Assembly: GCA_019429385.1 (NCBI GenBank)
Contig: JAHYIS010000016.1
Location: 1-46,535 of the forward strand
Length of the DNA: 46,535 nt
Source of the DNA: ANME-2 cluster archaeon
Lineage (GTDB): Archaea; Halobacteriota; Methanosarcinia; Methanosarcinales; Methanocomedenaceae
Direction of reading: 5' to 3'
Position numbers and translations under genes: made by a program. This document shows, in pieces, positions 3,101 through 35,316 of the stretch (its first letter is position 1; every line of letters begins with the position of its first letter). Under the pieces are notes generated by a model. That model was given only the letters and a program-made list of their open reading frames with translations, had not been told where the DNA came from and did not search any database.

Positions 3101-4277
3101 TATACGATACCTGACTCCCGGGTGCTACATTCTGGGATGGTGGTGTCAGGGTAACACTGACAGAAGGATTTGGCACAATCACAGTTGTTATAACCTGTCC
3201 TGAGCCGGTAAAATTGGCAGGATCTTCCACAGATGTCGCTGTCACTGTTGTGGTATCAGATGTACCAGCACCGCCATTTGTAACATTAAGTGTTGTCTGC
3301 GCACTTCCGCCAGAGAGTACTGCTAAAGTCGTTGTGCCAAGCGAGGACCCGAAATTGGTGGGGTCGGAGTCAACTGCACTGAGACTATAATTGCCATCAG
3401 TGTTACCGTTATTATTGACTGTGATTGTATATTCAGTACTGCCACCTGCAACCACACCTGCTGATGTTGGAGATGGGGTAACTGTGACATTGTATGTTGG
3501 AGCTGTTGAACCAGCTACTTCATCCACTGAGAATTGCCCACTGTTCGAGTTGCTAGTACCCATGTATATCCTCTGTTCGCCACTTGTTGAAGCAACTGAA
3601 ACTTTCAGGGCTAGATAGGAGTTTGCGGGGGCACCTCCCGAAATACTGCTCATATCAACCACATATGCCTGCTGTACACCGGAAGGTACTACCTGATCCA
3701 CAAATCCAAACGATGTAAAGGCACCTGATTGCGCATAGCCAAGTTCAAAACGATATGTGACGGGACCAATTGAAGTTCGTTCCCTGAGATAAAAGTTAGC
3801 TCCTGATTGGCCGGTGACCTGGGTCTGAACCGTATATGCTATAGGGAATATCGCTAAAAACTGATCACCAGTTGTCGTGGTTGTCAGCCTGTCATCAGCA
3901 CAATTCAATCCTACATCATTAAGCGTGGTGACCCGATATGCTGTGGGCCGGGCGTTGCAAGCACCCCAATCAGCAGTATAGCCCGAAGCATCTATTGCCC
4001 CTGAAGAAGGCTCCCAATAATATGCGGTAACTGCCGCACTCGCCGATCCCGCGAACAGCATCATAATAAGCATTGTGACAGCCAGGATCATCCCGGCCCT
4101 GGGAATAGAGCGGCAGGCTTCGCGAGGTGGACTTCGAGACCGTCCGGTATAGCATGCAGGGGATTGGTGTTTCTTATTTAACGAAAAAGTGGTCAGAAAC
4201 GTTGCTTTAATAGAATTCTGCTTGATATTTCCAAATCCATCGATGTATTTTTTCTGGTAATCTCTAATCCAATCCAT
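1..4277 (-). CDS. Giant extracellular multiheme cytochrome c with Ig-like domains (5' part, runs off left edge)
   Basis: An open frame of 1425 codons without a stop continues beyond base 1. The chosen ATG at 4277 has a strong AGGTGG site just upstream. After a basic stretch, a hydrophobic segment near residues 63-81 ending in AGSASA looks like a signal peptide; an ATG at 4091 directly before it is an alternative start. Residues about 258-475 hold two Ser/Thr/Asn-rich CARDB/Ig-like beta domains, followed by a third beta-rich domain. From residue 646 onward there are 24 haem-type motifs: 21 CXXCH, one CX4CH (2241-2261), one CX3CH (942-959) and one CXXCK (828-842). By family knowledge such proteins carry electrons through or outside the archaeal cell envelope to a partner or mineral; that role is inferred. 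Total length and any C-terminal S-layer or membrane anchor cannot be seen. Confidence 0.93.
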   Translation of the reverse strand, partial: MDWIRDYQKKYIDGFGNIKQNSIKATFLTTFSLNKKHQSPACYTGRSRSPPREACRSIPRAGMILAVTMLIMMLFAGSASAAVTAYYWEPSSGAIDASGYTADWGACNARPTAYRVTTLNDVGLNCADDRLTTTTTGDQFLAIFPIAYTVQTQVTGQSGANFYLRERTSIGPVTYRFELGYAQSGAFTSFGFVDQVVPSGVQQAYVVDMSSISGGAPANSYLALKVSVASTSGEQRIYMGTSNSNSGQFSVDEVAGSTAPTYNVTVTPSPTSAGVVAGGSTEYTITVNNNGNTDGNYSLSAVDSDPTNFGSSLGTTTLAVLSGGSAQTTLNVTNGGAGTSDTTTVTATSVEDPANFTGSGQVITTVIVPNPSVSVTLTPPSQNVAPGSQVSYTVTVQNTGNVADSYTLSLTNANTADFSYSLNSSTTGTLNPGQQSIKTMTVTASAGATGSHQQSVTATGSASDTSNLVTTTVFTGPSKILVATNRYVVLDDATTSGQASGTGFIVPSRTWTNAFGPGVRTTVNMYALVLDADGMPLPSSNVTLTLRNPGGAIDYTLPTSTDSNGLINVPRDLNAKNYYGKWQVEVNASGVTGSAQFIYNWWGCVGGNGCSGHGNENLGSGAPISSPYAGGSDAVVGDRSQHATTCTVCHLSYNGQGLSQSVNTIGAHSSLSCDNANCHGSISSHNTNMIIGSCTNCHSSANTTMKSTLNGIVSTYSTTSTYHSNPAIPCVICHGPMHNITKPDPSAGTLGPTEDSHCTTCHQGLTQHNTTVACTECHTQDVHVIKFIQNDNNFATTRTNAASCPDCHVGSGLASFATAPKITQITHSNNILNGTLWDRGADFWTASDDESKCLYCHGETKHSAVAAGYIASFKGANVMGGDLSGDWCSSCHKKGSTNYNDMLTTLSNVPPEITGDSLYGNYSTGAQDGTSYYDHSTISGFTDADCTECHKSTATEITPLMHEVKKASGMTCARCHAAYGTAVLSTQHNQSLNPGAPTCTDCHNDTGYGDLSHANGPKVYTVNETNTCRNCHIDGVNGFYERHTSSSDCTTCHFANTTQPFTLNASLYAHDHNLVVEHSYYEYNTSGGMPLALNGGTGVGMFPQYTCSLPCHATRSPEKVDLASRTWLNSSHANSRAGASDSKNNCAKCKSPTNYDVLLSALNPVIAEEDWDGIQCRVCHNLHDRKYPNNTGTSGAPIAFYNATASSYANYSVYDEISNNTELCEKCHQPGGSHDSKFAGPHRDTLNFTCTDCHMNASFSKGMHEFKVENITSAQTGCEVCHNPADHTFTSTALHTDKVDCLGCHDQMYTTANVTGYAVTADGNYGVWNDSGIVTTWHLSHGAPATFKPHNISRDVTCAKCHGAKSIVTDLPIAPVLSGDACASCHAAYGTAVLSTQHNQSLNPGAPTCTDCHNDTGYGDLSHAN
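1231..1357. repeat. Exact 127-base direct repeat, copy 2
   Basis: Internal copy of the repeat at 1-127. It covers the CTDCH haem motif at 1269-1283 and ends inside the CARCH motif at 1350-1364, where the other copy reads CASCH. Confidence 0.97.
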
Positions 4278-4581
4278 TTGTCCACCTTGAATTTTTTATT
4301 ATTTACTGTGTGAATTCATTGATACTTAAATGTATCTAAAAATTTTTATAATTATCATAATAATGCTTATAATCATCACCATGGGGTCGGTCGTAGTCTT
4401 ACTATAAAATACATAAAACCCCAATTGTAACCCAATCACTGTATAGACCTTTTTAGTAACAACCCATTTGAAATAAATGATACATTAAATCCGTTTTTTG
4501 AAGCTAATAGAAATCTCTTCACTATTCGAAACCTATATAGAATAAAACTCCCTTATAAGACCCCTCTGATTTTGAGGTAAC
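4278..4581. promoter_or_regulatory. AT-rich divergent promoter region between the cytochrome and pus10
   Basis: About 300 bases without a gene, much richer in A and T than the flanking coding DNA. On the plus strand CTATATAG at 4533-4540 is a plausible TATA box for pus10, with GAGGT just before its ATG. On the minus strand the cytochrome has an AGGTGG ribosome site directly upstream of 4277, and several T/A-rich stretches at 4320-4370 could serve as its TATA box. No clear operator palindrome was found. Confidence 0.5.
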
Positions 4582-11818: not shown

Positions 11819-12295
11819 TCAGGCAGACAGTGCCATACCAGAGATTATATCCTGGCGTGTTACGATACCTACAAGTTTGCCCTTGTCCAGTACTGGCATC
11901 CGGTTGATGTTATGTTTGACCATCCTGGATGCCACTGTTTCAAGACTATCGGAAACATCTGCAGTCACGACCGGACTGCTCATCACATCGGACAATCTCC
12001 TGGAACCGACATCCTCAAGGGAACGTTTTGCTTCTTCCCAGCTGATGAGTTCCCGCAGGGGCACCTCGATAACTTCAAAAGGACTTGGCAGCCATAACTG
12101 GCTGGATTTTTCAGGTACCTGAAGTAGCTTCAGTATATCGCTTCCAGTGACCATACCCACTACCCTGCCATCTTTTACCACAGGGATACCACTTATCTTA
12201 TGTTCCCGAAGCAGTAGCGCAGCATGTTTGACCATGTCATCCGGGCTGCATATTATTACATTTGTTGTCATTATCTCTTTTATCAGCATGTTCAT
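11819..12295 (-). CDS. CBS-domain pair protein
   Basis: A 158-residue protein made almost only of two CBS domains, residues about 8-60 (IMTTNVIICSPDDMVKHAAL, HKISGIPVVKDGRVVGMVTG) and about 95-155 (VMSSPVVTADVSDSLETVA, INRMPVLDKGKLVGIVTRQD). Such pairs bind adenine nucleotides or SAM and regulate partners; no catalytic domain is present. It sits between argC and argJ with almost no spacing, so an arginine-pathway or energy-sensing role is possible but inferred. Confidence 0.92.
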   Translation of the reverse strand: MNMLIKEIMTTNVIICSPDDMVKHAALLLREHKISGIPVVKDGRVVGMVTGSDILKLLQVPEKSSQLWLPSPFEVIEVPLRELISWEEAKRSLEDVGSRRLSDVMSSPVVTADVSDSLETVASRMVKHNINRMPVLDKGKLVGIVTRQDIISGMALSA

Positions 12296-12301
12296 TACTT
12301 C

Positions 12302-13312
12302 CTACGGAAAAATTGCCGGATTCCACAATCCTGAGGTCTCATCAAGCCCGAACATAAGGTTCATGTTCTGGACTGCCTGCCCCGATGCCCCTTTAACCAG
12401 GTTGTCGATGGCAGATACCACGACCAGCCGCTGCCCGTCAGCATCCATCTCAAATCCGATATCACAGAAATTAGAACCACGAACATGCCCCAGCATGGGA
12501 ATGCCATCCAGGAGCCTGACAAATGGTTTGCCAGCATAGAACTGACGGTAGATATCAGCCACCTGTGCAGCTTCGGTCCTTGTTTTCAGGAACAGGTGCG
12601 CAGTGGTCAGGATACCCCTGACAGACGGGATGACGTGGGGTGTGAAACTGACCTTGATGTTACTGTCAAGGCGCCCCAGTTCCTGCCTCATTTCAGCACC
12701 ATGGCGGTGTGTGGTTAGTTTATATGCCTGTATGTTCTCGGCCATGTTAGGATAATGTGAAACAGGGCTTGGCTCTACACCAGCTCCTGAGATGCCGCTT
12801 TTGGAATCAAATACCACACGTTCTATCAATCCGGCCGCGGCCATTGGTGCGGCTGCCAGCGTGGCTCCGGTCGGGTAGCATCCTGGATTAGCTACAAATG
12901 AGGCATCATGCACCTCGGGATGGAGTTCAACCAGCCCGAAGACAGCATCGAGCGGTGCCCTGTGCCTGAGTCCGTACACCTGCTCAAAAACACTGGCAGG
13001 CAGCCGGTAATCTGCACTGAGGTCTATCACTTTAGTCCCTGACTCCAACAGGTCCGGCACAATATCCATGGCGCTGCCGTGGGGTACTGCAGTGAACACG
13101 ACATCGCACTGACCTGCAACGTCACCAGCATCAAGGTTCTGGAACTTCAGGTCTGTAAAACCCTTAAGGTGGAGGTGGGTCTGGCTTACCTGTTTACCGT
13201 CAAGGCGGCGCGATGTAGCACATACCACTTCTGCCCGGGGGTGACTTCCCAGCAGGCGCATCAGTTCGCCGCCAGTATAGCCGGATGCACCCATAATCCC
13301 TGCGCGTATCAT
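12302..13312 (-). CDS. argC: N-acetyl-gamma-glutamyl-phosphate reductase
   Basis: A 336-residue NADPH-dependent reductase making N-acetylglutamate semialdehyde in arginine synthesis. Residues 1-15 hold the nucleotide-binding GASGYTGGEL; the catalytic Cys is in NPGCYPTGATL, and HRHGAEMRQELG follows. I chose ATG at 13312 because GGAG lies seven bases ahead; a longer frame from 13333 lacks a ribosome site and adds seven unlike residues. First gene of the argC-CBS-argJ run. The start faces the divergent exonuclease gene. Confidence 0.96.
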   Translation of the reverse strand: MIRAGIMGASGYTGGELMRLLGSHPRAEVVCATSRRLDGKQVSQTHLHLKGFTDLKFQNLDAGDVAGQCDVVFTAVPHGSAMDIVPDLLESGTKVIDLSADYRLPASVFEQVYGLRHRAPLDAVFGLVELHPEVHDASFVANPGCYPTGATLAAAPMAAAGLIERVVFDSKSGISGAGVEPSPVSHYPNMAENIQAYKLTTHRHGAEMRQELGRLDSNIKVSFTPHVIPSVRGILTTAHLFLKTRTEAAQVADIYRQFYAGKPFVRLLDGIPMLGHVRGSNFCDIGFEMDADGQRLVVVSAIDNLVKGASGQAVQNMNLMFGLDETSGLWNPAIFP

Positions 13313-21720: not shown

Positions 21721-23673
21721 CTAATTCTTGTTATTCACAGCATCTTCTATTCCTTTCACAGCTTCAGGATTTGCCAGTGTGGAGATATCACCCACTTCTT
21801 TTGAAATGAGGGCTGAACGCACTACCCGTCGCATGATCTTGCCGCTTCGGGTCTTGGGAAGGTCGTCCACGAAATAAATGATGTCTGGCCTGGCTATCTT
21901 GCCTATCTCTTCTCCGACATGATTGCGAAGGGTCTTCATCAGTTCATCTCCTGGCTCAACACCCATCTTTAACACCACGAATGCTGCAATGCTCTCACCT
22001 TTAATATCATCGGGCCTGCCTACCACAGCGGCTTCGCTCACTGATGAATGGCTGACCAGGGCTGATTCAACTTCAGAATTCCCTATCCTGTGCCCGGATA
22101 CATTGAGCACATCATCACCCCTGCCCTGTATCCAGAAGTAGCCGTCACTGTCTACCCTGGCGATGTCGCCTGATTTGAAATCACCCTGTTCGGTCCAGTA
22201 TTTTTCCACGTATCGCCGGGGTTCATTATAGAGAGTGCGCAGCATGGATGGCCAGGGTGATGTGAGTACCAGGCTACCCCCTTCATTCACAACGGGTTTG
22301 CCTTCAGGGTCATGCACTTTTGCACCGAAACCGGGTAGTGGCCTAGTCGCAGACCCGGGTTTCAATGGCAAAAATGGCAGCGGAGAAATGACAAAACACC
22401 CGGTCTCGGTCTGCCACCACGTGTCCATGATCGGGCACCGGCTTTTACCAATTTTTTCATAGTACCACATCCAGGCTTCCGGATTGATGGGTTCGCCCAC
22501 AGTACCAAGCAGTCTCAGGCTGCTCATATCATCCTTTTGAGTCCATTCATCACCAAAGCGCATATGCATCCTGATGGATGTTGGGGAAGTATAGAGCACG
22601 GTAATACCGTGACGTGCTACCATTTCCCACAGCCGGTTCGGTTCGGGATGGGCTGGAGCGCCTTCATAGAGCACCGAAGTGATACCCAGCATGAGCGGCC
22701 CAAACACAATGTAACTGTGTCCAGTGATCCAGCCTATGTCAGCGGAACACCACCACACGTCCTCCGGTTTGAGGTCAAAGACCCATTTAAGGGTGAGGGC
22801 TACTCCTACCGAGTAGGTGTGCACGTGTACTACGCCTTTGGGTTTACCTGTGGTACCCGAGGTATACAGGATAAAGAGAGGGTCTTCCGAGTCCATGATC
22901 TCTGCGTTGCATTCATCAGGCTGGTCAGCGAGCAGGTCGTGCCACCATATATCCCGTTTACGCATGGGTACATCGCACTGCGCCCATTGATAGCAAATAG
23001 TATGTTCAATGCCAGTACCCTTGACTGCTTCATCGGCCAGGGCTTTAAGGCTGATGACCTTGCCTTTTCTCCAGAACCCATCTGCTGTGATGAGGACCTT
23101 CGCGCCCGAATCCTGTATCCTGTCCTGGAGTGCGCGGGGGCTGAAACCCGAGAATACGACACTGTGTATGGCACCTATCCGGGCGCAGGCGAGCATGGCA
23201 ATGGGCAAGGCTGGTATCATAGGCATATAGAGGGCCACCCGGTCGCCTTTACCCACACCCAGGCGTTTCAGGCCGTTGGCCAACCGGTTGACTTCGTGAT
23301 ACAGGTCATGGTAGGTGAGTTCAGTGACGTTGCCCTGTTCCGATTCAAAGATGTATGCCACTTTGTTCTCGGTGGATGTTCCCATGTGACGATCGAGGGC
23401 ATCATGAACGATATTGTACTTGCCCTTGGTGAACCAGTGGTAGAAAGGGGCATCTGAACTGTCCAGTACTTTGTCATAGGGGCTGTACCATTCTACAAGG
23501 TCTTTTTCCACTTCTCCCCAGAACCATTCGATGTCCTTACTGCGCTGGTAGAGGGTCTCAATGTCAGGGATGTTATGTGCATCCATCCACTGCTTTACAT
23601 TGCTGTTCTCAACGATCTCTTTCGGGGGATAGAACGTGCGTTTTTCCCCAAGTAGTACATCCACGTTTGACAT
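21721..23673 (-). CDS. acs: Acetyl-CoA synthetase, AMP-forming
   Basis: A 650-residue enzyme that activates acetate with ATP and CoA. The AMP-binding motif [11 protein letters not shown], the WWQTETG segment and the C-terminal [11 protein letters not shown] with the acetylatable catalytic Lys are all present. [20 protein letters not shown] is typical of true Acs rather than longer-chain ligases. GGAG lies about nine bases upstream of the ATG. Length is the usual 650 or so. It could supply acetyl-CoA to the neighbouring mevalonate genes or allow acetate use; direction in vivo is inference. Confidence 0.96.
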
Positions 23674-25196: not shown

Positions 25197-27224
25197 ATGA
25201 TGATATCTACGAATCTGTTTTTTGGAATAGTAGGTACATATTTATCAGGTGCAGTGCTGGCCATCATCCTTCATAAAAAAGATTATCTCGCCACGTATGC
25301 ATCTTTCGTAAGCTCGATCATTGCATCCATTCTCGGAACTGTTTTTTCCTTATCAGTGATATTCGGAAGTGATATTTCCTTTGAATTGCCCGGAACATCC
25401 CTGATACATTTCGGCTTTTTTATCGATAAGCTTTCCGCATTTTTCATATTAGTTATATCCATTACCGTTTTTGCAGTCTCCATCTATTCCCTGGGTTATG
25501 TAAAGGAGTATTTTGGGAAAAAGGATATCGGTTACCTTGGTTTTTTGTATAATACATTCATCCTGTCAATGATCCTTGTAACCACCTGCAATAATGCCAT
25601 CTTCTTTTTGATCGCCTGGGAAGTGATGTCAGTAATATCTTATTTCCTTGTATTATATGAACATGAAAAACCGCAAACAAGGAAAGCCGGTTTTATCTAC
25701 ATAGTGATGACCCATATCGGAACAGGGTTCATAATCATATCATTCCTGATATTTATTGGTGCAAGCGGCAGTTTCGATTTTGATACGTTCGTGGGTGCTG
25801 GTACACAACTGCCACCATTTTTAAAGAACCTCGCATTTTTATTCGCACTTCTCGGTTTCGGGACAAAGGCCGGTATCGTCCCATTGCACATCTGGCTCCC
25901 TTATGCTCACCCGGCCGCACCCAGCAATGTATCGGCACTGATGTCCGGGGTAATGATCAAGACTGCTATATACATGTTCATCAGGGTCTTTTTTGATTTC
26001 CTGGGAGCTACTGAATTGTGGTGGGGAATACTACTTCTGGTCTTAGCCTCGGTATCGGCGCTTGTGGGAGTAATGTATGCATTGATGGAACATGATATGA
26101 AACGACTGCTTGCCTACCACAGCGTTGAAAATATTGGCATCATCCTGATTGGAGTGAGCATTGCCATGATCTTCATGTCTTCGGGACAGCCTGAACTGGC
26201 GGCATTTGGATTGATCGCCGGGCTCTATCACCTGGTAAACCATGCAGTATTCAAATCCCTGCTCTTTATGGGAGCCGGTTCATTGATCTATTCGACCCAT
26301 ACAAAAAATATCGAAGATTACGGAGGACTCATAAAAAAGATGCCCTGGACTGCCCTTTTTTTCCTGATCGGAGCCATCTCGATTTCGGCTCTGCCCCCAT
26401 TTAATGGTTTTGTGAGCGAATGGCTTACGTTCCAGGCCCAGTTGCTCAGTATCAATCTTACTGATAACATTACGAAAATTGCGGTACTTTTCAGCGGGGC
26501 AGGTCTCGCCCTCACCAGTGCCCTGGCAGCAGCTTGTTTCGTTAAGGCATTTGGCATAAGTTTTCTTGCAATCCCAAGAAGCCATCACGCAGAGGACGCA
26601 AAAGAGGTACCCATCTCAATGTTGACCGGAATGGGCATTCTTTCAATTGCATGCATTGCTCTTGGCGTTTTGCCATGGTATATTGTCAGGATTCTTGATT
26701 CAATATCCATGCAACATGTAGGAACAAGTATAGGTTCCAGGATGGGGGGTGGACTTTTTATTACTTCACTGTCTGAGCATCCTGCAAGTATTTCCCCCCT
26801 TGTTATCGCCCTCCTGGTATTCGTTGTACTGCCCCTGCCATTCATTGTGTATCTTTATGTACGCCGGACCTCCATACGGGAATATGAGACCTGGGGATGT
26901 GGCCAACCCGTAATTGGTTCACGAAATGAATATACTTCAACAGCTTTCTCAAAACCCATACGCATGTGGTTCGCCAATATCTACCGGCCTCACAGGGAGA
27001 TCCAGACCACGTACACTGATTCCCCGTACCTTAAAAAAAGGATTATTTTCGATTCACAAATAAATCCGGTATTTGAAAAGTATTTGTATGGTCCTGTCAT
27101 CTGGATCGTTCTTAATATATCAAGACTGATGACGCTTATCCAGACCGGATACATACAAACATATCTCCTTTACATACTCATCACCCTGGTAATTGCATTG
27201 ATATATGTAGGTAGTGGAGGATGA
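25197..27224 (+). CDS. HyfB/NuoL-like antiporter-type membrane subunit, copy 1
   Basis: A 675-residue integral membrane protein of the Mrp/NuoL family with well over a dozen hydrophobic segments. Ion-channel residues are conserved: Glu in IAWEVMS and Lys in GTKAGIVPLHIWLP, with SGVMIK further on. The C-terminal part, with YETWGCGQP, EYTSTAFSKP and a final membrane helix, is the extension characteristic of the HyfB type rather than of free Mrp antiporters. It should translocate protons or sodium ions as part of the membrane arm. It is the first gene of the operon, and its paralogue follows 168 bases later. Confidence 0.93.
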   Translation: MMISTNLFFGIVGTYLSGAVLAIILHKKDYLATYASFVSSIIASILGTVFSLSVIFGSDISFELPGTSLIHFGFFIDKLSAFFILVISITVFAVSIYSLGYVKEYFGKKDIGYLGFLYNTFILSMILVTTCNNAIFFLIAWEVMSVISYFLVLYEHEKPQTRKAGFIYIVMTHIGTGFIIISFLIFIGASGSFDFDTFVGAGTQLPPFLKNLAFLFALLGFGTKAGIVPLHIWLPYAHPAAPSNVSALMSGVMIKTAIYMFIRVFFDFLGATELWWGILLLVLASVSALVGVMYALMEHDMKRLLAYHSVENIGIILIGVSIAMIFMSSGQPELAAFGLIAGLYHLVNHAVFKSLLFMGAGSLIYSTHTKNIEDYGGLIKKMPWTALFFLIGAISISALPPFNGFVSEWLTFQAQLLSINLTDNITKIAVLFSGAGLALTSALAAACFVKAFGISFLAIPRSHHAEDAKEVPISMLTGMGILSIACIALGVLPWYIVRILDSISMQHVGTSIGSRMGGGLFITSLSEHPASISPLVIALLVFVVLPLPFIVYLYVRRTSIREYETWGCGQPVIGSRNEYTSTAFSKPIRMWFANIYRPHREIQTTYTDSPYLKKRIIFDSQINPVFEKYLYGPVIWIVLNISRLMTLIQTGYIQTYLLYILITLVIALIYVGSGG

Positions 27225-27392
27225 CATTTGAAGATGATTTTCTTAGGGTTAGGATTAAATACTGGATTGCATGTAATACAGAGCTCTATTAATAAAAAAT
27301 AAATGATTACAAGAGTTGATTTTCAAAACAATTAGGTCATGCCTTGTTTGTGCCAATAGCGTTTGTTGGTAAAATATTTTTTTTGGTGAATT
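27225..27392 (+). other. Spacer between the two HyfB-like genes
   Basis: AT-rich, 168 bases, the only long gap in an otherwise compact operon. GGTGA lies a few bases before the next ATG. Only a trivial 20-odd codon frame is present. An internal promoter is possible, or the gap is a scar of the gene duplication. Confidence 0.5.
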
Positions 27393-29408
27393 ATGATACA
27401 TGATTATTTATTTATTGGACTAATAGTTTTTTATATTGCAGGTGCCTCATCATCACTCATACTGAACAGAAACGATAGACTATGCACGTATACTGCTTTC
27501 ACCAGTGCTGCTCTTGCAGCCATTATCGGGATTGTGTTTTCGATTTCAGTGATTTTTGGTGACACATACACCTTCGATCTTCCAAGCTCCAGCTTCCTGG
27601 CTAATGGCCTTTTTATTGACAACCTATCAGCATTTTTTATTCTCGTAATATCAATATCCGTATTTGCAGTTTCCCTATACTCGATCGGGTATGTCAGGGA
27701 ATATTTCGGAAAAAAAAATATCGGGTACCTGGGTTTTCTCTATAACCTGTTCATTATTTCAATGATCCTGGTGGTAAGTGCAAATAATGCCATCATGTTC
27801 CTGATAGTCTGGGAAGTGATGTCAATAATTTCCTATTTCCTTGTGGTTTATGAACATGAAAAGCAGGAGAACAGGAAAAACGGTATTATCTATTTGATAA
27901 TGACCCATATCGGTACTGGTTTTATTATCATGTCCTTTCTGATATTTGCCGGGACCAGTGGCAGCTTCAGCTTTGACTCTTTCCGCCTGGCAGGCTCGAA
28001 TATGCCGTTCATGCTCAGGGATGCAGCCTTCCTGTTTGCCCTTATTGGTTTTGGAACAAAGGCAGGTATCGTCCCCCTTCATATCTGGCTTCCGTATGCC
28101 CACCCAGTGGCGCCCAGTAATGTTTCAGCACTCATGTCAGGAGTCATGATCAAGACTGCCATCTTTATGCTTATAAGGGTCAGCTTCGATTTTCTCGGAG
28201 CAAGCGAACCATGGTGGGGTTATCTGGTACTTATGGCCGGCACCGTATCAGCTTTGCTGGGCATTTTATATGCCATAATGGAACCTGATATCAAGAAGAT
28301 GCTTGCATTCAGCAGTATTGAGAATATTGGTATTATCCTGATCGGTATCGGTGCTTCAATGGTCTTTTTGTCTGGCGGTCATCCAGGTCTTTCATCCCTG
28401 GCAGCAATTGCCGCCCTTTACCACCTGCTGAACCATTCAGTATTCAAGAGTCTATTGTTCATGGGGGCGGGTGCAGTCATATTTTCAACGCATACAAAAA
28501 ATCTGGAACATCTGGGCGGACTTATCAAGAAGATGCCGGTTAGCAGCGTCCTTATCCTGATCGGGATATTATCCATTTCAGCATTACCGCCGTTTAGCGG
28601 TTTTGTAAGCGAGTGGCTTACATTCCAATCATTGCTCCAGAGTTTCAATGTGCATGATAACTTTGCCATGATCACATTATCGGTCAGTGCAGCAGTGCTG
28701 GCATTGACTGGCGCCCTTGCTGCCTATTGTTTCATAAAGACCTTTGGCATAGGATTCCTGGCACTTCCGCGAAGTGAACATGCGGCAAATGCAATTGAAG
28801 TAAACAGACCAATGCTTTTGGGAATGGGAATTCTGGCATTATTATCGTTATTACTGGGGATACTGCCCGTATATGTCCTGCCTGTATTGGATAGAATTGT
28901 CAGGACATTCACCGGTGCAAACAGCCCCGTAGTATCAGGGTCTGTCGGGACCATTATTCTACCATCCCAGATCTCTCTTTCCCCACCAGTGCTGTTACTG
29001 TTGCTGTTAGTGCCTTTATTGATACTGATTCTGATTCTGACACGCGCAGGTAATCAGCGAGTATATGAGACCTGGGGTTGCGGCCAGCCCCGATCCTGTG
29101 CGAGACAGGAATATACTTCAGCAGCATTTTCAAAACCGGTTCAGATATGGTTTAAAAACCTCTACAGGCCGGTAGATGAGACCCAGGCAACATATTCCTC
29201 ATCCACATTTATTAAAGATTCATTCAAATTTGAATCTTCAATAGCGCAATTATTTGAGCTCTATCTCTATAACCCTGTAATCAGCTTCGTCCAGTCAAGG
29301 TCAAGAAGGGTCAAGATCATCCAGACAGGCAGTATCCATGCATATCTTGCATATATCTTCGCAACACTTGTTATTCTTTTCATGACCGTGATAGCAGGAG
29401 GTACCTGA
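27393..29408 (+). CDS. HyfB/NuoL-like antiporter-type membrane subunit, copy 2
   Basis: A 671-residue paralogue of the preceding protein, alike along its whole length including the C-terminal YETWGCGQP extension. The key Glu (IVWEVMS) and Lys (GTKAGIVPLHIWLP) are both kept, so it should be active in ion transport. The two copies differ most at the N-terminus and in the long loop before YETWGCG. Both being intact suggests two distinct pumping subunits in one complex, or alternative use. Two bases separate it from the next gene. Confidence 0.93.
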   Translation: MIHDYLFIGLIVFYIAGASSSLILNRNDRLCTYTAFTSAALAAIIGIVFSISVIFGDTYTFDLPSSSFLANGLFIDNLSAFFILVISISVFAVSLYSIGYVREYFGKKNIGYLGFLYNLFIISMILVVSANNAIMFLIVWEVMSIISYFLVVYEHEKQENRKNGIIYLIMTHIGTGFIIMSFLIFAGTSGSFSFDSFRLAGSNMPFMLRDAAFLFALIGFGTKAGIVPLHIWLPYAHPVAPSNVSALMSGVMIKTAIFMLIRVSFDFLGASEPWWGYLVLMAGTVSALLGILYAIMEPDIKKMLAFSSIENIGIILIGIGASMVFLSGGHPGLSSLAAIAALYHLLNHSVFKSLLFMGAGAVIFSTHTKNLEHLGGLIKKMPVSSVLILIGILSISALPPFSGFVSEWLTFQSLLQSFNVHDNFAMITLSVSAAVLALTGALAAYCFIKTFGIGFLALPRSEHAANAIEVNRPMLLGMGILALLSLLLGILPVYVLPVLDRIVRTFTGANSPVVSGSVGTIILPSQISLSPPVLLLLLLVPLLILILILTRAGNQRVYETWGCGQPRSCARQEYTSAAFSKPVQIWFKNLYRPVDETQATYSSSTFIKDSFKFESSIAQLFELYLYNPVISFVQSRSRRVKIIQTGSIHAYLAYIFATLVILFMTVIAGGT

Positions 29409-29410
29409 CA

Positions 29411-30361
29411 ATGTTAACACAAATCGCCATTATTTTTCTCCAGATACTTATCATCCTTACCTTGGCCCCGCTCTTAAGTGGAATTATTAAAAAAATAAAA
29501 GCCGTCTTCCAGATACGTAAAGGCCCCGGCATTTTCCAGCCATATTTCGATCTTGCAAAGCTCATGCGCAAAGATTCAGTGGTATCGAAAGAAGTATCCT
29601 GGATATTCCATGCAGCACCGCTCGTTTCTTTTGTAGCGGTACTCACAGCGGGTCTTATGGTCCCTATCTATATTACAATAATGCCCTTTGGCTTTGCCGG
29701 GGACCTCATCGCAGTCGTCTACTTATTCGCCCTGGCCCGGTTCTTTATTGCCCTGGCGTCGCTGGATGCAGGAAGTGCGTTCGGGGGGATGGGCGGCAGC
29801 CGTGAGATGTTCGTGGCTGCAATGGTGGAACCTGCATTGATGCTGTCCATTTTTGCAGTGGCGCTCAATGTCGGCTCAACAAACCTCGGCTACATTGCAC
29901 AGACCGTGTCGATGATGGGATTTGAAGGTCTGTCCCCATACCAGATGCTGGCATTTGTGGCATTATTTGTCATTGCAATAGCAGAGACCGGACGCATCCC
30001 GGTGGATAATCCAGCTACGCATCTTGAACTTACTATGATACACGAGGCCATGATATTGGAATACTCGGGCCGGCAGCTGGCAATAATCGAACTGGGGTCA
30101 ATGATGAAACAACTGCTGGTCTTCTCTCTCCTTGCGAACATATTTTTCCCCTGGGGAATAGCCACAGGCTGGAATGCAACAGCCATACTTGTGTCCATCA
30201 TGGTTTTCGCCATAAAGATAGTGATCCTCGGCGCGTTCATGGCCGTGATCGAAACCTCTACTGCAAAATGGAGGTTGTTCAGGCTGCCTGAATTATTATC
30301 GTTCTCGCTTATGCTTTCGTTCCTGGCAATTGTTTCGTTCATTATTGTAAAAGGAGGATAA
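29411..30361 (+). CDS. HyfC/NuoH-like membrane subunit
   Basis: A 316-residue membrane protein of the NuoH/HyfC/EchB family, which links the soluble redox arm to the ion-pumping arm and lines the quinone-type cavity in complex I. Signatures are VFQIRKGPGIFQPYFDLAKL in the first loop, and RIPVDNPATHLELTMIHEAM, the acidic loop facing the cluster arm. About eight hydrophobic segments are visible. AGGAGGT precedes the ATG. It starts two bases after the second HyfB-like gene. Confidence 0.94.
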   Translation: MLTQIAIIFLQILIILTLAPLLSGIIKKIKAVFQIRKGPGIFQPYFDLAKLMRKDSVVSKEVSWIFHAAPLVSFVAVLTAGLMVPIYITIMPFGFAGDLIAVVYLFALARFFIALASLDAGSAFGGMGGSREMFVAAMVEPALMLSIFAVALNVGSTNLGYIAQTVSMMGFEGLSPYQMLAFVALFVIAIAETGRIPVDNPATHLELTMIHEAMILEYSGRQLAIIELGSMMKQLLVFSLLANIFFPWGIATGWNATAILVSIMVFAIKIVILGAFMAVIETSTAKWRLFRLPELLSFSLMLSFLAIVSFIIVKGG

Positions 30362-30363
30362 AC

Positions 30364-31023
30364 ATGTCAGAACTGATACTCGGGTCTGAACTGGTACAAT
30401 TGATCATAGCCTTGATCCTGGTCACCACGTTTATGATACTGAGCTCGAAACGATTGTATTCATGTGTCAGGGCATTTAGCATCCAGTCATTATTACTGGC
30501 GTGCGTTGCCGGTATTGTTGCATATTCTACAGGAAAATTTGATATTTATATCGTGGCATTCTTGACCCTGGTAATAAAAGCAGCCATAATCCCGTATATA
30601 TTCATTTATATAATCAATGAGATAAAGGTCAAGAAAGAAGTGGAACTGTATGTCAACATCTCACCCTCATTGATCATTGGCGGTGTGCTGTTTGTTATTT
30701 CGTATTATTTAATTAAATCCATCCATATCCTGTCAGAACTGTCCAGCCTGAGCCTGTCAGCTTCCATGTCACTGGTCTCCATCGGGCTTTTCATAATGAT
30801 AAGCCGCAAAAAGGCATTGATGCAGATGCTGGGGATCCTGATAATGGAAAACGGGTTGTTCCTGGGAGCTATATCGCTTACCTATGGTATGCCGCTGCTC
30901 GTTGAATTGGGTATCTTTTTTGATGTATTGATAGGTGTGCTGATAATGGGTATACTGATCTTCAGGATAAACCGGACGTTCGAAAGTATTGATACAGACA
31001 TGCTAAAAACATTGATCGGGTGA
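30364..31023 (+). CDS. HyfE-like membrane subunit
   Basis: A 219-residue membrane protein with six or so hydrophobic segments, corresponding to HyfE, the NuoK-like subunit of group-4 hydrogenase complexes. FLTLVIKAAIIPYIF carries a buried Lys, and MENGLFLGAISLTYGMPLLVE the conserved acidic residues expected in the ion path. AGGAGG lies seven bases before the ATG. It is sandwiched between the HyfC- and HyfF-like genes with the standard hyf gene order. Confidence 0.92.
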   Translation: MSELILGSELVQLIIALILVTTFMILSSKRLYSCVRAFSIQSLLLACVAGIVAYSTGKFDIYIVAFLTLVIKAAIIPYIFIYIINEIKVKKEVELYVNISPSLIIGGVLFVISYYLIKSIHILSELSSLSLSASMSLVSIGLFIMISRKKALMQMLGILIMENGLFLGAISLTYGMPLLVELGIFFDVLIGVLIMGILIFRINRTFESIDTDMLKTLIG

Positions 31024-31028
31024 TAAAA

Positions 31029-32483
31029 ATGATAGAATATCTTCTCCTTGCTCCCTTGCTTACCAGTATATTGTGCGCCTTCACAAACAGTCGAAAACAG
31101 ATTGAGACCATAAGCATCGCAGGTTCCATTACCACCCTGGGTCTTGGCCTGGTACTCGTATACAACGTGTTCAGATACGGGCCTATCGTCACATGGGAAA
31201 ATTCCCTCTTTGCCGACGCTTTCAGCGCATTTATTGTATTGATCGTTTCCCTGGTCGGTTTCGTGGCATCGATGTATTCGATCGGGTATATGGGCCACGA
31301 ATTCGAACATGGCATAATGGATGTCAAAAAGCTGAAACTGTATTATATCCTGTACCATCTCTTCATGTTCACGATGCTGCTGGTGGGTGTTACCAATAAC
31401 CTGGGATTATGGATAGCCATCGAGATGACCACCCTGGTATCAGCACTCTTAATGATCCTGTACTCCAGGAAATCCTCAATTGAAGCTGCCTGGAAATATA
31501 TGGTTATCTGTACCGTAGGTATCACGTTCGCACTCTTCGGGACCATACTCACCTATTATGCTGCAGTAAAGATACTGGGAGAAACAGGAAATGCACTGAA
31601 CTGGACCTCTCTTATCGAAGTTGCCGACCAGTTCGACCCCACTATAATGAAGCTGGCCTTCATATTCATCCTTATTGGATACGGTACCAAGGCAGGGCTT
31701 GCCCCCATGCATACCTGGCTGCCTGATGCCCACAGCGAGGCACCCACTCCCGTCAGTGCCCTGCTCTCAGGCGTGCTGCTCAACTGTGCCATGTACGGTA
31801 TCATCCGTTTTTATACCATTGCTACGGCTTCCACAGGTGATGCCTTTACCAGCAACCTCCTGATCATATTCGGGCTGTTGTCCCTGGGTATTGCGGTACC
31901 GTTCATTATCCTGCAGGAAGATTACAAACGCTTACTGGCGTACAGCAGCGTGGAACATATGGGAATAATAGCCATAGGGATCGGGTTTGGTGGTACGTTC
32001 GGCATCCTTGGCGCAATACTTCACATGTTCAATCACGCCATGACAAAATCCCTGATGTTCTTTGCTGTGGGGAATGTCCTGCTAAAGCATGACACAAAAG
32101 AGATCAGCAAGGTGAGCGGGATCGTGAAATCAATGCCAGTGACCGGTACGATGCTCATTCTGGGAGGGCTTGCCATCACTGGTTCACCTCCATTCAGTAT
32201 CTTCATAAGTGAATTTACCATACTTGCATCAGGGTTCTCGCAGGGGCATGTGGTCTCGTCAGTACTGTTATTGTTATTTATTATCATGATATTTGCCGGC
32301 TTTTTCAATCATATCAGTAACATGGCATTCGGGATACCAAAAACCGGGATAATAACTGGAGATATGAGCAGATGGACGCTGGGAGCCATGGGAATTTTAC
32401 TTGTGTTCGTACTGTTCCTGGGAATATATATTCCCACGTTCTTCTATGATATGCTGATGCAAGTGGTCGAGATTGTGGGATGA
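31029..32483 (+). CDS. HyfF/NuoN-like antiporter-type membrane subunit
   Basis: A 484-residue third antiporter-like subunit, shorter than the two HyfB-like proteins and of the HyfF type. GTKAGLAPMHTWLPDAHSEA with its Lys, and Glu in WIAIEMTTLVS, are preserved, as is YSSVEHMGIIAIGIGFGG. I chose the ATG at 31029 (MIEYLLLAPLL) over GTG 31020, since GGGTGAT lies just ahead. With this gene the membrane arm has three antiporter-like units, so it could move several ions per turnover. Confidence 0.93.
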   Translation: MIEYLLLAPLLTSILCAFTNSRKQIETISIAGSITTLGLGLVLVYNVFRYGPIVTWENSLFADAFSAFIVLIVSLVGFVASMYSIGYMGHEFEHGIMDVKKLKLYYILYHLFMFTMLLVGVTNNLGLWIAIEMTTLVSALLMILYSRKSSIEAAWKYMVICTVGITFALFGTILTYYAAVKILGETGNALNWTSLIEVADQFDPTIMKLAFIFILIGYGTKAGLAPMHTWLPDAHSEAPTPVSALLSGVLLNCAMYGIIRFYTIATASTGDAFTSNLLIIFGLLSLGIAVPFIILQEDYKRLLAYSSVEHMGIIAIGIGFGGTFGILGAILHMFNHAMTKSLMFFAVGNVLLKHDTKEISKVSGIVKSMPVTGTMLILGGLAITGSPPFSIFISEFTILASGFSQGHVVSSVLLLLFIIMIFAGFFNHISNMAFGIPKTGIITGDMSRWTLGAMGILLVFVLFLGIYIPTFFYDMLMQVVEIVG

Positions 32484-32487
32484 TACG

Positions 32488-34053
32488 ATGAGAATCTATA
32501 GAGAAGCATTACGCAAAGAATTTGGCAGCACTATCATTGAAGAGTCCCTGAACCTGAACGAGGTCTATCTCACCGTAGAGAAGGAATCGCTCATTAAGAT
32601 GTGTAACTGCCTGTACTACCATTTTGGTCTGCCCCTTATCCTCATCTTCGCCACCGACGAGAGGAAAAAGACAGGCAATTTTATCCTGCATTATGTATTT
32701 TCCGTTGATTCCGGGGACTCGTTCATTATCCTAAAGATACATGTCAATGAAACTATGCCGCAGTTCCGCTCCCTTACTCCCGTGATCCCGGCAGCCAACT
32801 GGTACGAGCGGGAGATACAGGATATGTTCGGACTGCGGCCGGTGGGTCATCCAGACCCGAGGCGCCTGGTCATGTTCGAGGACTGGCCTGATGGATTGTA
32901 TCCTTTGAGAAAGGATTTTGATATCGCTGCAAAACCGCCACGCGTGGAGGGGGAGTATGTGTACCGCCGTGTGGAAGGCGAGGGCGTCTATGAGATACCG
33001 GTGGGGCCCGTGCATGCAGGGGTAATTGAACCCGGACACTTCAGGTTCAGCGTGGCAGGAGAGCCTATCATCAATCTGGAGATACGGCATTTCTATACCC
33101 ATAAGGGTGTGGAAAAGCTGTTCGAGAATATCTCAATAGATAAAGGGGTATTCCTGGCAGAACGGGTATCCGGTGATAACTCGGTGGCACATGCCGTGGC
33201 TTTTTGCCAGGCCATAGAAAAGCTGGCAGGTATCGGGGTCCCGTCCCGTGCGCAATATATCAGGACGATACTGCTGGAGCTTGAACGGCTGTACAATCAC
33301 CTGGGAGACATTGCAGGGATCGCTACTGATGTGGCCTTTGCAGCCGGTGCAGCTCATGCCAACAAACTGAAAGAAGATGTTATGCGATTGAACGAGGTTG
33401 TTACCGGAAGCAGGCTGTTAAGAGGCATGAACGCCATCGGAGGCGTGAGGCGGGATATCGGTCATAAGAAAGAAGAAATCCTGCTTGCACTCACCTCACT
33501 GGATGATCATTTCCGGGAGTTTATCGAGATGCTGCTGGAAACATCTTCTGTGCTGGAAAGGATTGAAACCACGGGTCGCATCAGTAATGATACGGCAAAA
33601 GCCTTGCATGTGGTTGGTCCGGCAGGACGTGCATCAGGAATAGACAGGGATACAAGGCGGGACCATCCGTATGCAGCGTATCCAAACCTTGATTTCAACG
33701 TGCCGGTGCGCAATGACGGGGATGTGTATGCACGGACAAGGATACGCTCTCATGAGGTGTTTGAATCCATCAGTATAATACAGCAGGCACTTGCATCTTT
33801 ACCGGAAGGTGATATTGATGCCAGGGTAAAGGATGTCCCTGACGGGTATGCATTCGGATATACTGAAGCCCCGAGGGGAGAGAACCTGTACTGGGTGATG
33901 GTCAGGGACGGGAGGATCGAACGGTGTAAGGTACGTGACCCCTCATTTTGCAACTGGCTTTCAATTGAATATGCAGTGCTTGATAATATCGTGCCTGACT
34001 TTCCCATTATCAACAAGAGCCTGAGCCTGTCCTACTCTGGCAATGATATGTAG
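32488..34053 (+). CDS. HyfG-like NuoC-NuoD fusion large subunit lacking NiFe ligands
   Basis: A 521-residue fusion. Residues about 10-150 are the NuoC-like domain (YEREIQDMFGLRP, WPDGLYPLRKDF); the rest is the NuoD/hydrogenase large subunit. In true group-4 hydrogenases the N-terminal motif has two cysteines (RVCGIC); here the stretch reads ERVSGDNSVAH with Ser228 and Asn231 in their place. The C-terminal motif, normally DPCxxC, reads NKSLSLSYSGND, so both remaining cysteines are also absent. This protein therefore cannot bind a NiFe centre. The rest of the fold is intact with no frameshift, suggesting a retained non-hydrogenase function of the Ehr type. The former active-site cavity may bind another substrate such as a quinone; that is inference. 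Confidence 0.94.
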   Translation: MRIYREALRKEFGSTIIEESLNLNEVYLTVEKESLIKMCNCLYYHFGLPLILIFATDERKKTGNFILHYVFSVDSGDSFIILKIHVNETMPQFRSLTPVIPAANWYEREIQDMFGLRPVGHPDPRRLVMFEDWPDGLYPLRKDFDIAAKPPRVEGEYVYRRVEGEGVYEIPVGPVHAGVIEPGHFRFSVAGEPIINLEIRHFYTHKGVEKLFENISIDKGVFLAERVSGDNSVAHAVAFCQAIEKLAGIGVPSRAQYIRTILLELERLYNHLGDIAGIATDVAFAAGAAHANKLKEDVMRLNEVVTGSRLLRGMNAIGGVRRDIGHKKEEILLALTSLDDHFREFIEMLLETSSVLERIETTGRISNDTAKALHVVGPAGRASGIDRDTRRDHPYAAYPNLDFNVPVRNDGDVYARTRIRSHEVFESISIIQQALASLPEGDIDARVKDVPDGYAFGYTEAPRGENLYWVMVRDGRIERCKVRDPSFCNWLSIEYAVLDNIVPDFPIINKSLSLSYSGNDM

Positions 34054-34061
34054 GTGATACT

Positions 34062-34400
34062 ATGTTAAAAATCCTAGAAATGACCCTGAAAACGGGAATC
34101 CAGACCACGAAATATCCACAAGAACCGGATATTGCCCCGCTCGATTTCCGTGGAAAACCGGACCTATTCCCAGATACATGTACCTTTTGCGGGGAATGTG
34201 CCGCAGTGTGCCCTTCCAACGTGATAGAACTCAGGGAAGAGAAGGGGGAAATGGTGCTTACTTTGTCATACTGTGGATGTATATTCTGTGGCCGTTGCGA
34301 GGAGGTATGTTCTCAAGATGCGATCAAACTTACACAGGAATATGAAATGGCTTCCAGGACAAGGGATGACCTGTTGAGTATAATTCGGAGGAACGTATGA
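34062..34400 (+). CDS. HyfH/NuoI-like ferredoxin subunit with two 4Fe-4S clusters
   Basis: A 112-residue polyferredoxin. Both C-x2-C-x2-C-x3-C motifs are complete, CTFCGECAAVCP and CIFCGRCEEVCS, with an additional Cys just before the second. It carries electrons between the NuoB-like subunit and an outside donor or acceptor. The stop overlaps the NuoB-like start (ATGA). The N-terminal 40 residues are the NuoI-type extension that anchors to the membrane arm. Confidence 0.94.
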   Translation: MLKILEMTLKTGIQTTKYPQEPDIAPLDFRGKPDLFPDTCTFCGECAAVCPSNVIELREEKGEMVLTLSYCGCIFCGRCEEVCSQDAIKLTQEYEMASRTRDDLLSIIRRNV

Positions 34401-34885
34401 CGATTGAAGATGAGGTCCAGATAATGGGGCAGCAGTTGCGCTCCAGAATAACGAAGATATTCGGCCGCTCGCTGCATATACGTGAAGTGGATGCTGGTTC
34501 ATGCAATGGCTGCGAGGTTGAAGTGAACTCACTCTCAAATCCAATCTACGATATTGAGCGGTTCGGTGTACATATCGTGGCTTCTCCCCGCCATGCGGAT
34601 ATGCTGCTGGTGACCGGTCCGGTTACAAGGAACATGGAACTTGCCCTGCTCAAGACCTATAATGCAACCCCTTCACCCAAACTGGTGGCCGCCATGGGGT
34701 CATGTGCATGCAATGGCGGGATATTTGGCGATACGTACGCAAGCGGCGGTGGTGTTGACAGGGTATTGCCGGTGGATATCTATATCCCTGGCTGTCCCCC
34801 CAGGCCCCAGGCCGTGATATTCGGCCTGATGATGGCAATGAATAGATTCGAGCAGAAGATCAAAAGAACAGAGGTAGTAGCATGA
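34397..34885 (+). CDS. NuoB/HyfI-like subunit (small hydrogenase-type, one 4Fe-4S cluster)
   Basis: A 162-residue protein of the NuoB/hydrogenase small subunit family. The four cluster ligands are visible in SCNGCEVE (two Cys), GSCACNGG and IPGCPPRPQ. This cluster lies next to the large-subunit cavity. With its ligands intact while the large subunit has lost the metal ligands, electron transfer to the cavity is still possible. Overlaps of four bases exist on both sides, with the ferredoxin and the stress protein genes. Confidence 0.95.
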   Translation: MTIEDEVQIMGQQLRSRITKIFGRSLHIREVDAGSCNGCEVEVNSLSNPIYDIERFGVHIVASPRHADMLLVTGPVTRNMELALLKTYNATPSPKLVAAMGSCACNGGIFGDTYASGGGVDRVLPVDIYIPGCPPRPQAVIFGLMMAMNRFEQKIKRTEVVA

Positions 34886-35316
34886 CGAAATACGAGATCC
34901 TAATGGCGACCGACGGCTCGGTATGGGGCAAGAAAGCTGAGATAGCGGCCATGAAGATAGCCAGGTCCTACAATATTCGTATTGCAGCTATTTACGTAGC
35001 CGTGGCAAGGAAGGATTCGACCCGGGAGGAGCTGGTGGCAAAAGGGGAGGAAGTGCTCAAGCGTGTGGTTGAGATCGGGGAAGAGATGGGCGTCGAGGTG
35101 CACAAGATCCTGGTGGGGGTCAGCATACAGCGGATGCCGAAGAAAGGGCAATGTGCAGAATCCATTGCCAGGGCCATTCTGGACGCTGCAGACCAGTACA
35201 AAGTACATACTATTGTAATGGGCAGCAAGGGTGAGAGTGAGTTCGACCGTGAGATGGGAAGCGTGGCGCTTGAAGTGGTCAGAAAGGCCAGGTGCACTGT
35301 ACTGGTGGCACGATAA
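34882..35316 (+). CDS. Universal stress protein (UspA family)
   Basis: A 144-residue single-domain USP. LMATDGSVWGKKAEIAA opens the fold, and VMGSKGESEFDREMGSVALE is close to the ATP-binding pattern (G-x2-G then a Gly-Ser), with eight rather than nine residues between. Its ATG overlaps the NuoB-like stop, so it is translationally tied to the complex. Nucleotide binding and a regulatory link to the complex are inferred. Last gene of the operon; an AT-poor, gene-free patch follows. Confidence 0.92.
   Translation: MTKYEILMATDGSVWGKKAEIAAMKIARSYNIRIAAIYVAVARKDSTREELVAKGEEVLKRVVEIGEEMGVEVHKILVGVSIQRMPKKGQCAESIARAILDAADQYKVHTIVMGSKGESEFDREMGSVALEVVRKARCTVLVAR

Follow-up and report, generated by a model that had tools for sequence, protein, structure and literature searches.

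An Ehr-type complex without NiFe ligands in an ANME-2 cluster archaeon, and its relatives with and without iron-sulfur ligands

Ehr complexes and the operon of the window

Complexes of the Ehr kind have already been described: they combine group-4-hydrogenase-like subunits with antiporter-like subunits, and the NiFe cysteines are absent from their large subunit. Such complexes were reported in ammonia-oxidising archaea (PMC10432482), Margulisbacteria and Saganbacteria (PMC6349859), comammox Nitrospira (PMC10284858) and Sulfobacillus (PMC4378227). A study on CPR bacteria (PMC7304191) describes an Ehr large subunit without cysteines, and an Ehr gene cluster is known in Geobacter, with its role uninvestigated (PMC7894505). 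Methanoperedens has been described as having an "Ech hydrogenase lacking EchD" (PMC4683180), and freshwater ANME-2d have been said to possess Ech (PMC9012536).

Here we describe an Ehr operon on a stretch of 46,535 nucleotides (JAHYIS010000016.1, hereafter the window), which is contig C16 of the 2.40-Mb, 70-contig genome of an ANME-2 cluster archaeon (GCA_019429385.1). This genome encodes methyl-coenzyme M reductase and carries a separate, complete-looking Fpo operon on another contig, so the Ehr complex of the window represents a second complex-I-like enzyme. The locus (25197-35316) comprises nine forward-strand genes in the order HyfB1-HyfB2-HyfC-HyfE-HyfF-HyfG-HyfH-HyfI, followed by a universal stress protein (Usp) gene. 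All nine reading frames are open at the coordinates given in the preliminary description, which had reported a group-4-hydrogenase-like gene order without frameshift, and the Pfam and NCBIfam matches to Hyf- and Nuo-like families bear out that order.

Among the membrane subunits, the first HyfB-like antiporter subunit (25197-27224, 675 aa) matches Proton_antipo_M of Pfam at 2.4e-55 and the NCBIfam model of hydrogenase 4 subunit B above its cut-off, and the second copy (27393-29408, 671 aa) is 59% identical to it. They are followed by a HyfC/NuoH-like subunit (29411-30361, 316 aa; NADHdh, 7.7e-45), a HyfE/NuoK-like subunit (30364-31023, 219 aa; hydrogenase 4 membrane subunit, 2e-27, under the cut-off) and a HyfF-like antiporter subunit (31020-32483, 487 aa; Proton_antipo_M, 8.6e-54) whose best NCBIfam match is hydrogenase 4 subunit F. 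The lysines and glutamates of the ion path are kept, as had been claimed: E142, K224, K302, K353 and E408 in HyfB copy 1, and E135, K224, K303, E312 and K343 in HyfF. In HyfC, the acidic residues E140, E192, D199, E206, E212 and E281 are invariant across the Ehr clade; in HyfE, E162 is invariant and E181 almost invariant.

The HyfG-like large subunit, a fusion of NuoC and NuoD with Complex1_30kDa and 49kDa domains, spans 32473-34053 when read from a TTG (526 aa). Its end agrees with the range of 32488-34053 proposed before, and its start may be either the ATG at 32488 or the TTG at 32473. The ferredoxin subunit HyfH (34062-34400, 112 aa; Fer4_7, 2.1e-15) has two 4Fe-4S motifs and, as the alignment shows, no counterpart to the C-terminal part of E. 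coli HyfH. The HyfI/NuoB-like small subunit (34397-34885; Oxidored_q6, 7.6e-34) retains its four proximal-cluster ligands. The last gene (34882-35316; Usp, 4.6e-14), which lies within the range given before, encodes a universal stress protein and not a subunit of the complex. A Usp gene also ends the Methanoperedens-type Ehr operons in the gene-order comparison, and in one genome another stands at the start (L003, 1095-1514). The operon contains no NuoEFG or FpoF gene, and its immediate surroundings, as noted before, are free of hydrogenase-maturation, NADH and F420 genes.

The E. coli Hyf and Hyc (FHL-1) systems share with the window the gene order, the NuoC-NuoD fusion, the fold of the large subunit (TM 0.88) and the EAPRG motif. 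In contrast, the window lacks the four Ni ligands, the C-terminal extension of the large subunit, HycI, and HyfA, HyfD and HyfJ, has a doubled HyfB, and belongs to a separate clade. The Ehr of ammonia-oxidising archaea (PMC10432482) is like the window in having a group-4a-like large subunit without ligand cysteines, the HyfBCEFGI order, 42-48% identity and the SGD and NKS...SYSGND signature; it differs in that a ferredoxin domain with one cluster is fused to HyfI, whereas the window has a separate two-cluster HyfH, the doubled HyfB and the Usp.

The former NiFe site of HyfG

In a full-length pairwise alignment with E. coli HycE (7z0s, 345 bits), RVCGIC pairs with RVSGDN and DPCYSC with SLSYSG, and a multiple alignment of HyfG, HycE, NuoCD and the archaeon's own FpoD gives the same pairing. 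The four ligand positions hold no cysteine (0/4): the N-terminal motif ERVSGDN (33160-33180, forward strand) has Ser233 and Asn236, and the C-terminal site, NKSLSLSYSGNDM followed by the stop (34012-34050, forward strand), has Ser520 and Gly523. Neither alignment places a cysteine at a shifted position, and the earlier claim that all four NiFe ligands are gone stands. Because the protein stops three residues past Gly523, it has no cleavable C-terminal tail. Shifted cysteines, a frameshift and an annotation error were each rejected after the ORF check and the alignments.

A tree of 61 D-domain sequences, 52 of them Ehr, places the 52 in one monophyletic group (100/100) on a branch of 1.36, among which the Uhrbacteria sequences of our analysis join the clade of the window; other published Ehr lineages (Geobacter, Nitrospira) lie outside this sample. 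The Ehr clade is sister to, and outside of, E. coli HycE and HyfG (100/99), the two group 4a hydrogenases in the tree, and the window HyfG accordingly does not branch among Cys4 group 4a proteins as represented by these two. Outside Ehr plus HycE/HyfG lie complex I and three further group-4 proteins of the Cys4 type. Neither outcome that the preliminary description had named as refuting it was seen: the cysteines are not shifted, and the tree gives a clade beside the tested hydrogenases, not inside them. HycE is the best PDB match of the window HyfG by sequence, and also the best PDB fold (TM 0.88, with complex I NuoCD next) of a model built from 14 sequences; its mean pLDDT is 82.6, and the stretches 160-210, 504-511 and 521-526, where part of the pocket lies, are modelled with low confidence.

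A group 4a hydrogenase carries four cysteines in RxCGxC and DPCxxC and is accompanied in the genome by HycI and HypABCDEF. The window HyfG lacks these cysteines, and a genome-wide search turned up no further NiFe large subunit. The genome-wide search for maturation proteins, which covered HycI and HypD, recovered no functional set: there is no HycI-type endopeptidase, and HypD is present only as a 205-residue fragment (model length, 351). The window complex is almost certainly an Ehr complex and not a hydrogenase, as the preliminary description had held, and it is unable to form a NiFe centre. The HypD fragment (L136 7102-7719, contig C20) stands alone, without an obvious hyp neighbor, and is probably what remains of a NiFe hydrogenase system that was lost.

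Six HyfG residues, Asp235, Asn514, Lys515, Ser520, Gly523 and Asp525, are invariant in 56/56 clade members, while HycE has Ile at Asp235, Ile-Gly at Asn514-Lys515 and Cys at both Ser520 and Gly523. The replacement signature reads GD in the N-terminal motif and NKS...SY.G.D at the C terminus; D235, N514-K515-S516, S520, Y521, G523 and D525 would make up the HyfG pocket. The 56 members come from Methanoperedens-type archaea (ANME-2d), ammonia-oxidising archaea (Nitrosotalea, Nitrosopumilales and Nitrososphaeraceae), Uhrbacteria, Omnitrophota, Ruminiclostridium papyrosolvens and many methanogens; those beyond the phylum of the window were collected in one scan of genome contigs with a few short peptide patterns, which is a non-exhaustive sample. 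The ion-path residues of HyfB, HyfF, HyfC and HyfE are conserved in the clade as well. Since the signature is invariant in all 56 members, the loss of the NiFe site is not decay. Judged from the sequences, archaea and bacteria alike carry one invariant signature in place of the lost NiFe site.

At this locus, the MAG "ANME-2 cluster archaeon B4-08" is most closely related to the window (92-94% in HyfG), followed by Ca. Methanoperedens (73-74%). The Ehr operon is present in almost every sampled genome of the Methanoperedens-like family but in few of the window's own family. The split between HyfB1 and HyfB2 predates the divergence of the sampled Methanoperedens-type genomes, and both copies persist in several. 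In B4-08 (L021, 9495-10854), residue 167 of HyfB1 is joined to residue 242 of HyfG, and HyfG has a frame break; this may be a deletion or a misassembly.

Among 24 Methanoperedens-type genomes, we found no Ech-sized NiFe large subunit, and in 16 of the 24 a PF00374 scan finds the Ehr protein alone. The "Ech lacking EchD" of Methanoperedens (PMC4683180) is probably this Ehr complex, whose fusion of NuoC to NuoD would make it seem that an EchD homologue is lacking. If the two are the same, the "Ech hydrogenase" in metabolic models of Methanoperedens may be a non-hydrogenase.

Iron-sulfur ligands in the window and their loss in relatives

The window operon keeps 12/12 Fe-S ligands, in agreement with the earlier statement that the small subunit and the ferredoxin retain their cluster cysteines. 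Eight lie in HyfH (Cys40, 43, 46, 50 and Cys73, 76, 79, 83) and four in HyfI (Cys36, 39, 103 and 133). Every Methanoperedens-type operon with complete subunits retains all 12, and because the ligands of three clusters are kept in this way, electron transfer is probably used in the lineage of the window.

In 25 relatives from methanogens and Uhrbacteria, all four cluster cysteines of HyfI are gone (0/25, versus 30/30 in the other HyfI proteins), and no HyfH or ferredoxin gene is present in their operons. The methanogen operon consists of six genes, HyfB-C-E-F-G-I, and occurs in Methanosarcinaceae and further methanogen families; an example is L069 4810-12133, on a contig of 5,751,492 bases (G148:C1), and further loci are L070-L076, L117-L128 and L131-L133. 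At the ligand sites, methanogen HyfI reads GSDNSTE, VGDDAC and PGNPP (or near variants), and Uhrbacteria HyfI reads GSTNAEE, VGDGAC and PGDPP. The Uhrbacteria operons (L013, L020) also have HyfI relocated to their front end. Intermediate states were seen too: Thaumarchaeota have the fused ferredoxin domain with four cysteines for one cluster in addition to the HyfI cluster, and Omnitrophota retain the HyfI cluster alone. The tree demands two losses of the ligands, one in Uhrbacteria and one in methanogens, and its starred branches force both.

The HyfG signature is unchanged in the 25 cluster-free relatives, and their ion-path residues are at or near 100%. Arg231, three residues ahead of Gly234, is missing in 23 of the 25; its complex I counterpart touches cluster N2. 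Over the six operon genes in five methanogen pairs, dN/dS is about 0.03-0.16, a range that plainly marks the Fe-S-free operon of methanogens as being under purifying selection. Because signature, ion path and purifying selection persist without Fe-S ligands, the conserved HyfG pocket need not be a redox site. Our limited literature search, which left aside the founding papers (Marreiros 2013, Batista 2013), found no account of Fe-S-ligand-free Ehr members and none of a Methanosarcina complex of the Ehr kind. The available portion of PMC7304191 makes no mention of ligand loss in Uhrbacteria HyfI.

The Fe-S-free members separate redox from ion translocation within one protein family, which bears on how the two are coupled in complex I. 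The genome carrying the L069 operon we take to be that of Methanosarcina acetivorans C2A. Gene deletion is routine in this species, and the Methanosarcina version, which appears functional without any metal cofactor, makes the long-open question of the role of Ehr pumps directly testable.

Mechanism of the complex

According to the reading that we favour, with about even confidence, the window encodes an Fe-S-fed, ion-translocating Ehr complex that is driven by redox chemistry and has an acceptor other than protons. The complex would be a hydrogenase-derived, complex-I-like ion translocator on the branch nearest Hyf/Hyc (group 4a). Electrons would enter HyfH from a soluble low-potential carrier, for which ferredoxin is the simplest candidate, and pass through the two 4Fe-4S clusters of HyfH and the single cluster of HyfI to the remodelled HyfG pocket, where the putative acceptor would be reduced. 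Acidic residues of HyfC and HyfE would then couple this reaction to the three antiporter-like subunits HyfB1, HyfB2 and HyfF, with donor, acceptor, direction and ion all inferred. Ehr complexes have been proposed to couple a cytoplasmic redox reaction to the translocation of charge, and the window has the ion-path residues.

The first candidate acceptor would be a membrane quinone-type carrier entering via HyfC. The archaeon's own Fpo (F420H2 dehydrogenase) is complex-I-like as well, but FpoD has the quinone-motif tyrosine of complex I (RICY), whereas the window HyfG has Gly at this NuoD position (RVSG); with the tyrosine missing, the pocket of HyfG contains no standard quinone site. In none of the lineages does the operon have a conserved neighbor that could be the donor or acceptor, and most neighbor clusters are antisense ORFs.

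These two points speak against a redox-driven complex, and so does the pocket of the 25 relatives, which is unchanged although they have no Fe-S ligand set; a non-redox core fits this better. The core function might then be ion transport that is not redox-driven, as in an Mrp-like antiporter or a gated channel, with the pocket as a ligand-binding or coupling element and the retained Fe-S clusters as a sensor or regulator. We hold this to be a possible but less probable account of the window. The loss of the HyfI cysteines and HyfH on two separate starred branches under a constant HyfG signature (56/56) is consistent with it, as are the near-complete ion path of the 25 relatives, the low dN/dS of the five methanogen pairs, the graded Fe-S loss from Thaumarchaeota to Omnitrophota and the Usp proteins within the operon. 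However, the retention of 12/12 ligands in every complete Methanoperedens-type operon is hard to explain if electrons are dispensable there, and the cofactor-free relatives, whose function is read from sequence, may have switched function. The preliminary description had proposed a working pump with a different substrate site. Invariant ion-path residues and the clade-wide replacement site support the pump; as for the substrate site, the pocket shared with the 25 Fe-S-free relatives may not bind a redox substrate.

For the clade as a whole, the HyfG pocket may serve in coupling or in binding a ligand, and redox input may be optional. We tentatively suggest, while giving it somewhat less than even weight, that the clade is an ion transporter built around an invariant non-redox pocket with an optional electron chain, which is complete in the archaeon of the window. 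Ammonia-oxidising archaea and Omnitrophota would have lost part of this chain, and two groups, Uhrbacteria and the methanogens with Methanosarcina among them, would each have given it up entirely. If so, methanogens would have a complex-I-like pump or antiporter without any redox cofactor.

Improbable, in our judgment, is a ferredoxin oxidoreductase whose pocket reduces a soluble substrate such as a sulfur compound or a disulfide. Mbs/Mbx of Pyrococcus, a group-4 relative with an altered site, would be a precedent by analogy, and the invariant polar C terminus borders the pocket. Nevertheless, the window HyfG scores higher against FHL (345 bits) than against Mbh (177) or the NuoD-like chain of 6u8y (129), its former NiFe site has no cysteine, and no substrate gene is adjacent. 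More improbable still, and largely refuted, is a cryptic hydrogenase that uses unusual ligands, or else a pseudogene being lost: the broken operon of B4-08 and the absence of the operon from most members of the window's own family would fit it, but the B4-08 break may be a misassembly, no ORF of the window is interrupted, the signature does not vary between phyla, and the genome has no other NiFe protein, no HycI and a fragmentary HypD.

Several minor observations were made in the window and around other Ehr loci. At 1175-4581 the window has 3.4 kb without an ORF of at least 80 aa and without Rfam or tRNA matches. An acetyl-CoA synthetase gene (21721-23673) lies near the operon, as in three close relatives (L002, L003, L021); AcsA was rejected as a conserved neighbor partner because it recurs in these three only. 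At L116 (G193), HyfH and HyfI are fused, a divergent Usp gene (12138-12623) stands beside the Ehr operon, and the operon adjoins F420-hydrogenase-like and formate-dehydrogenase-like genes.
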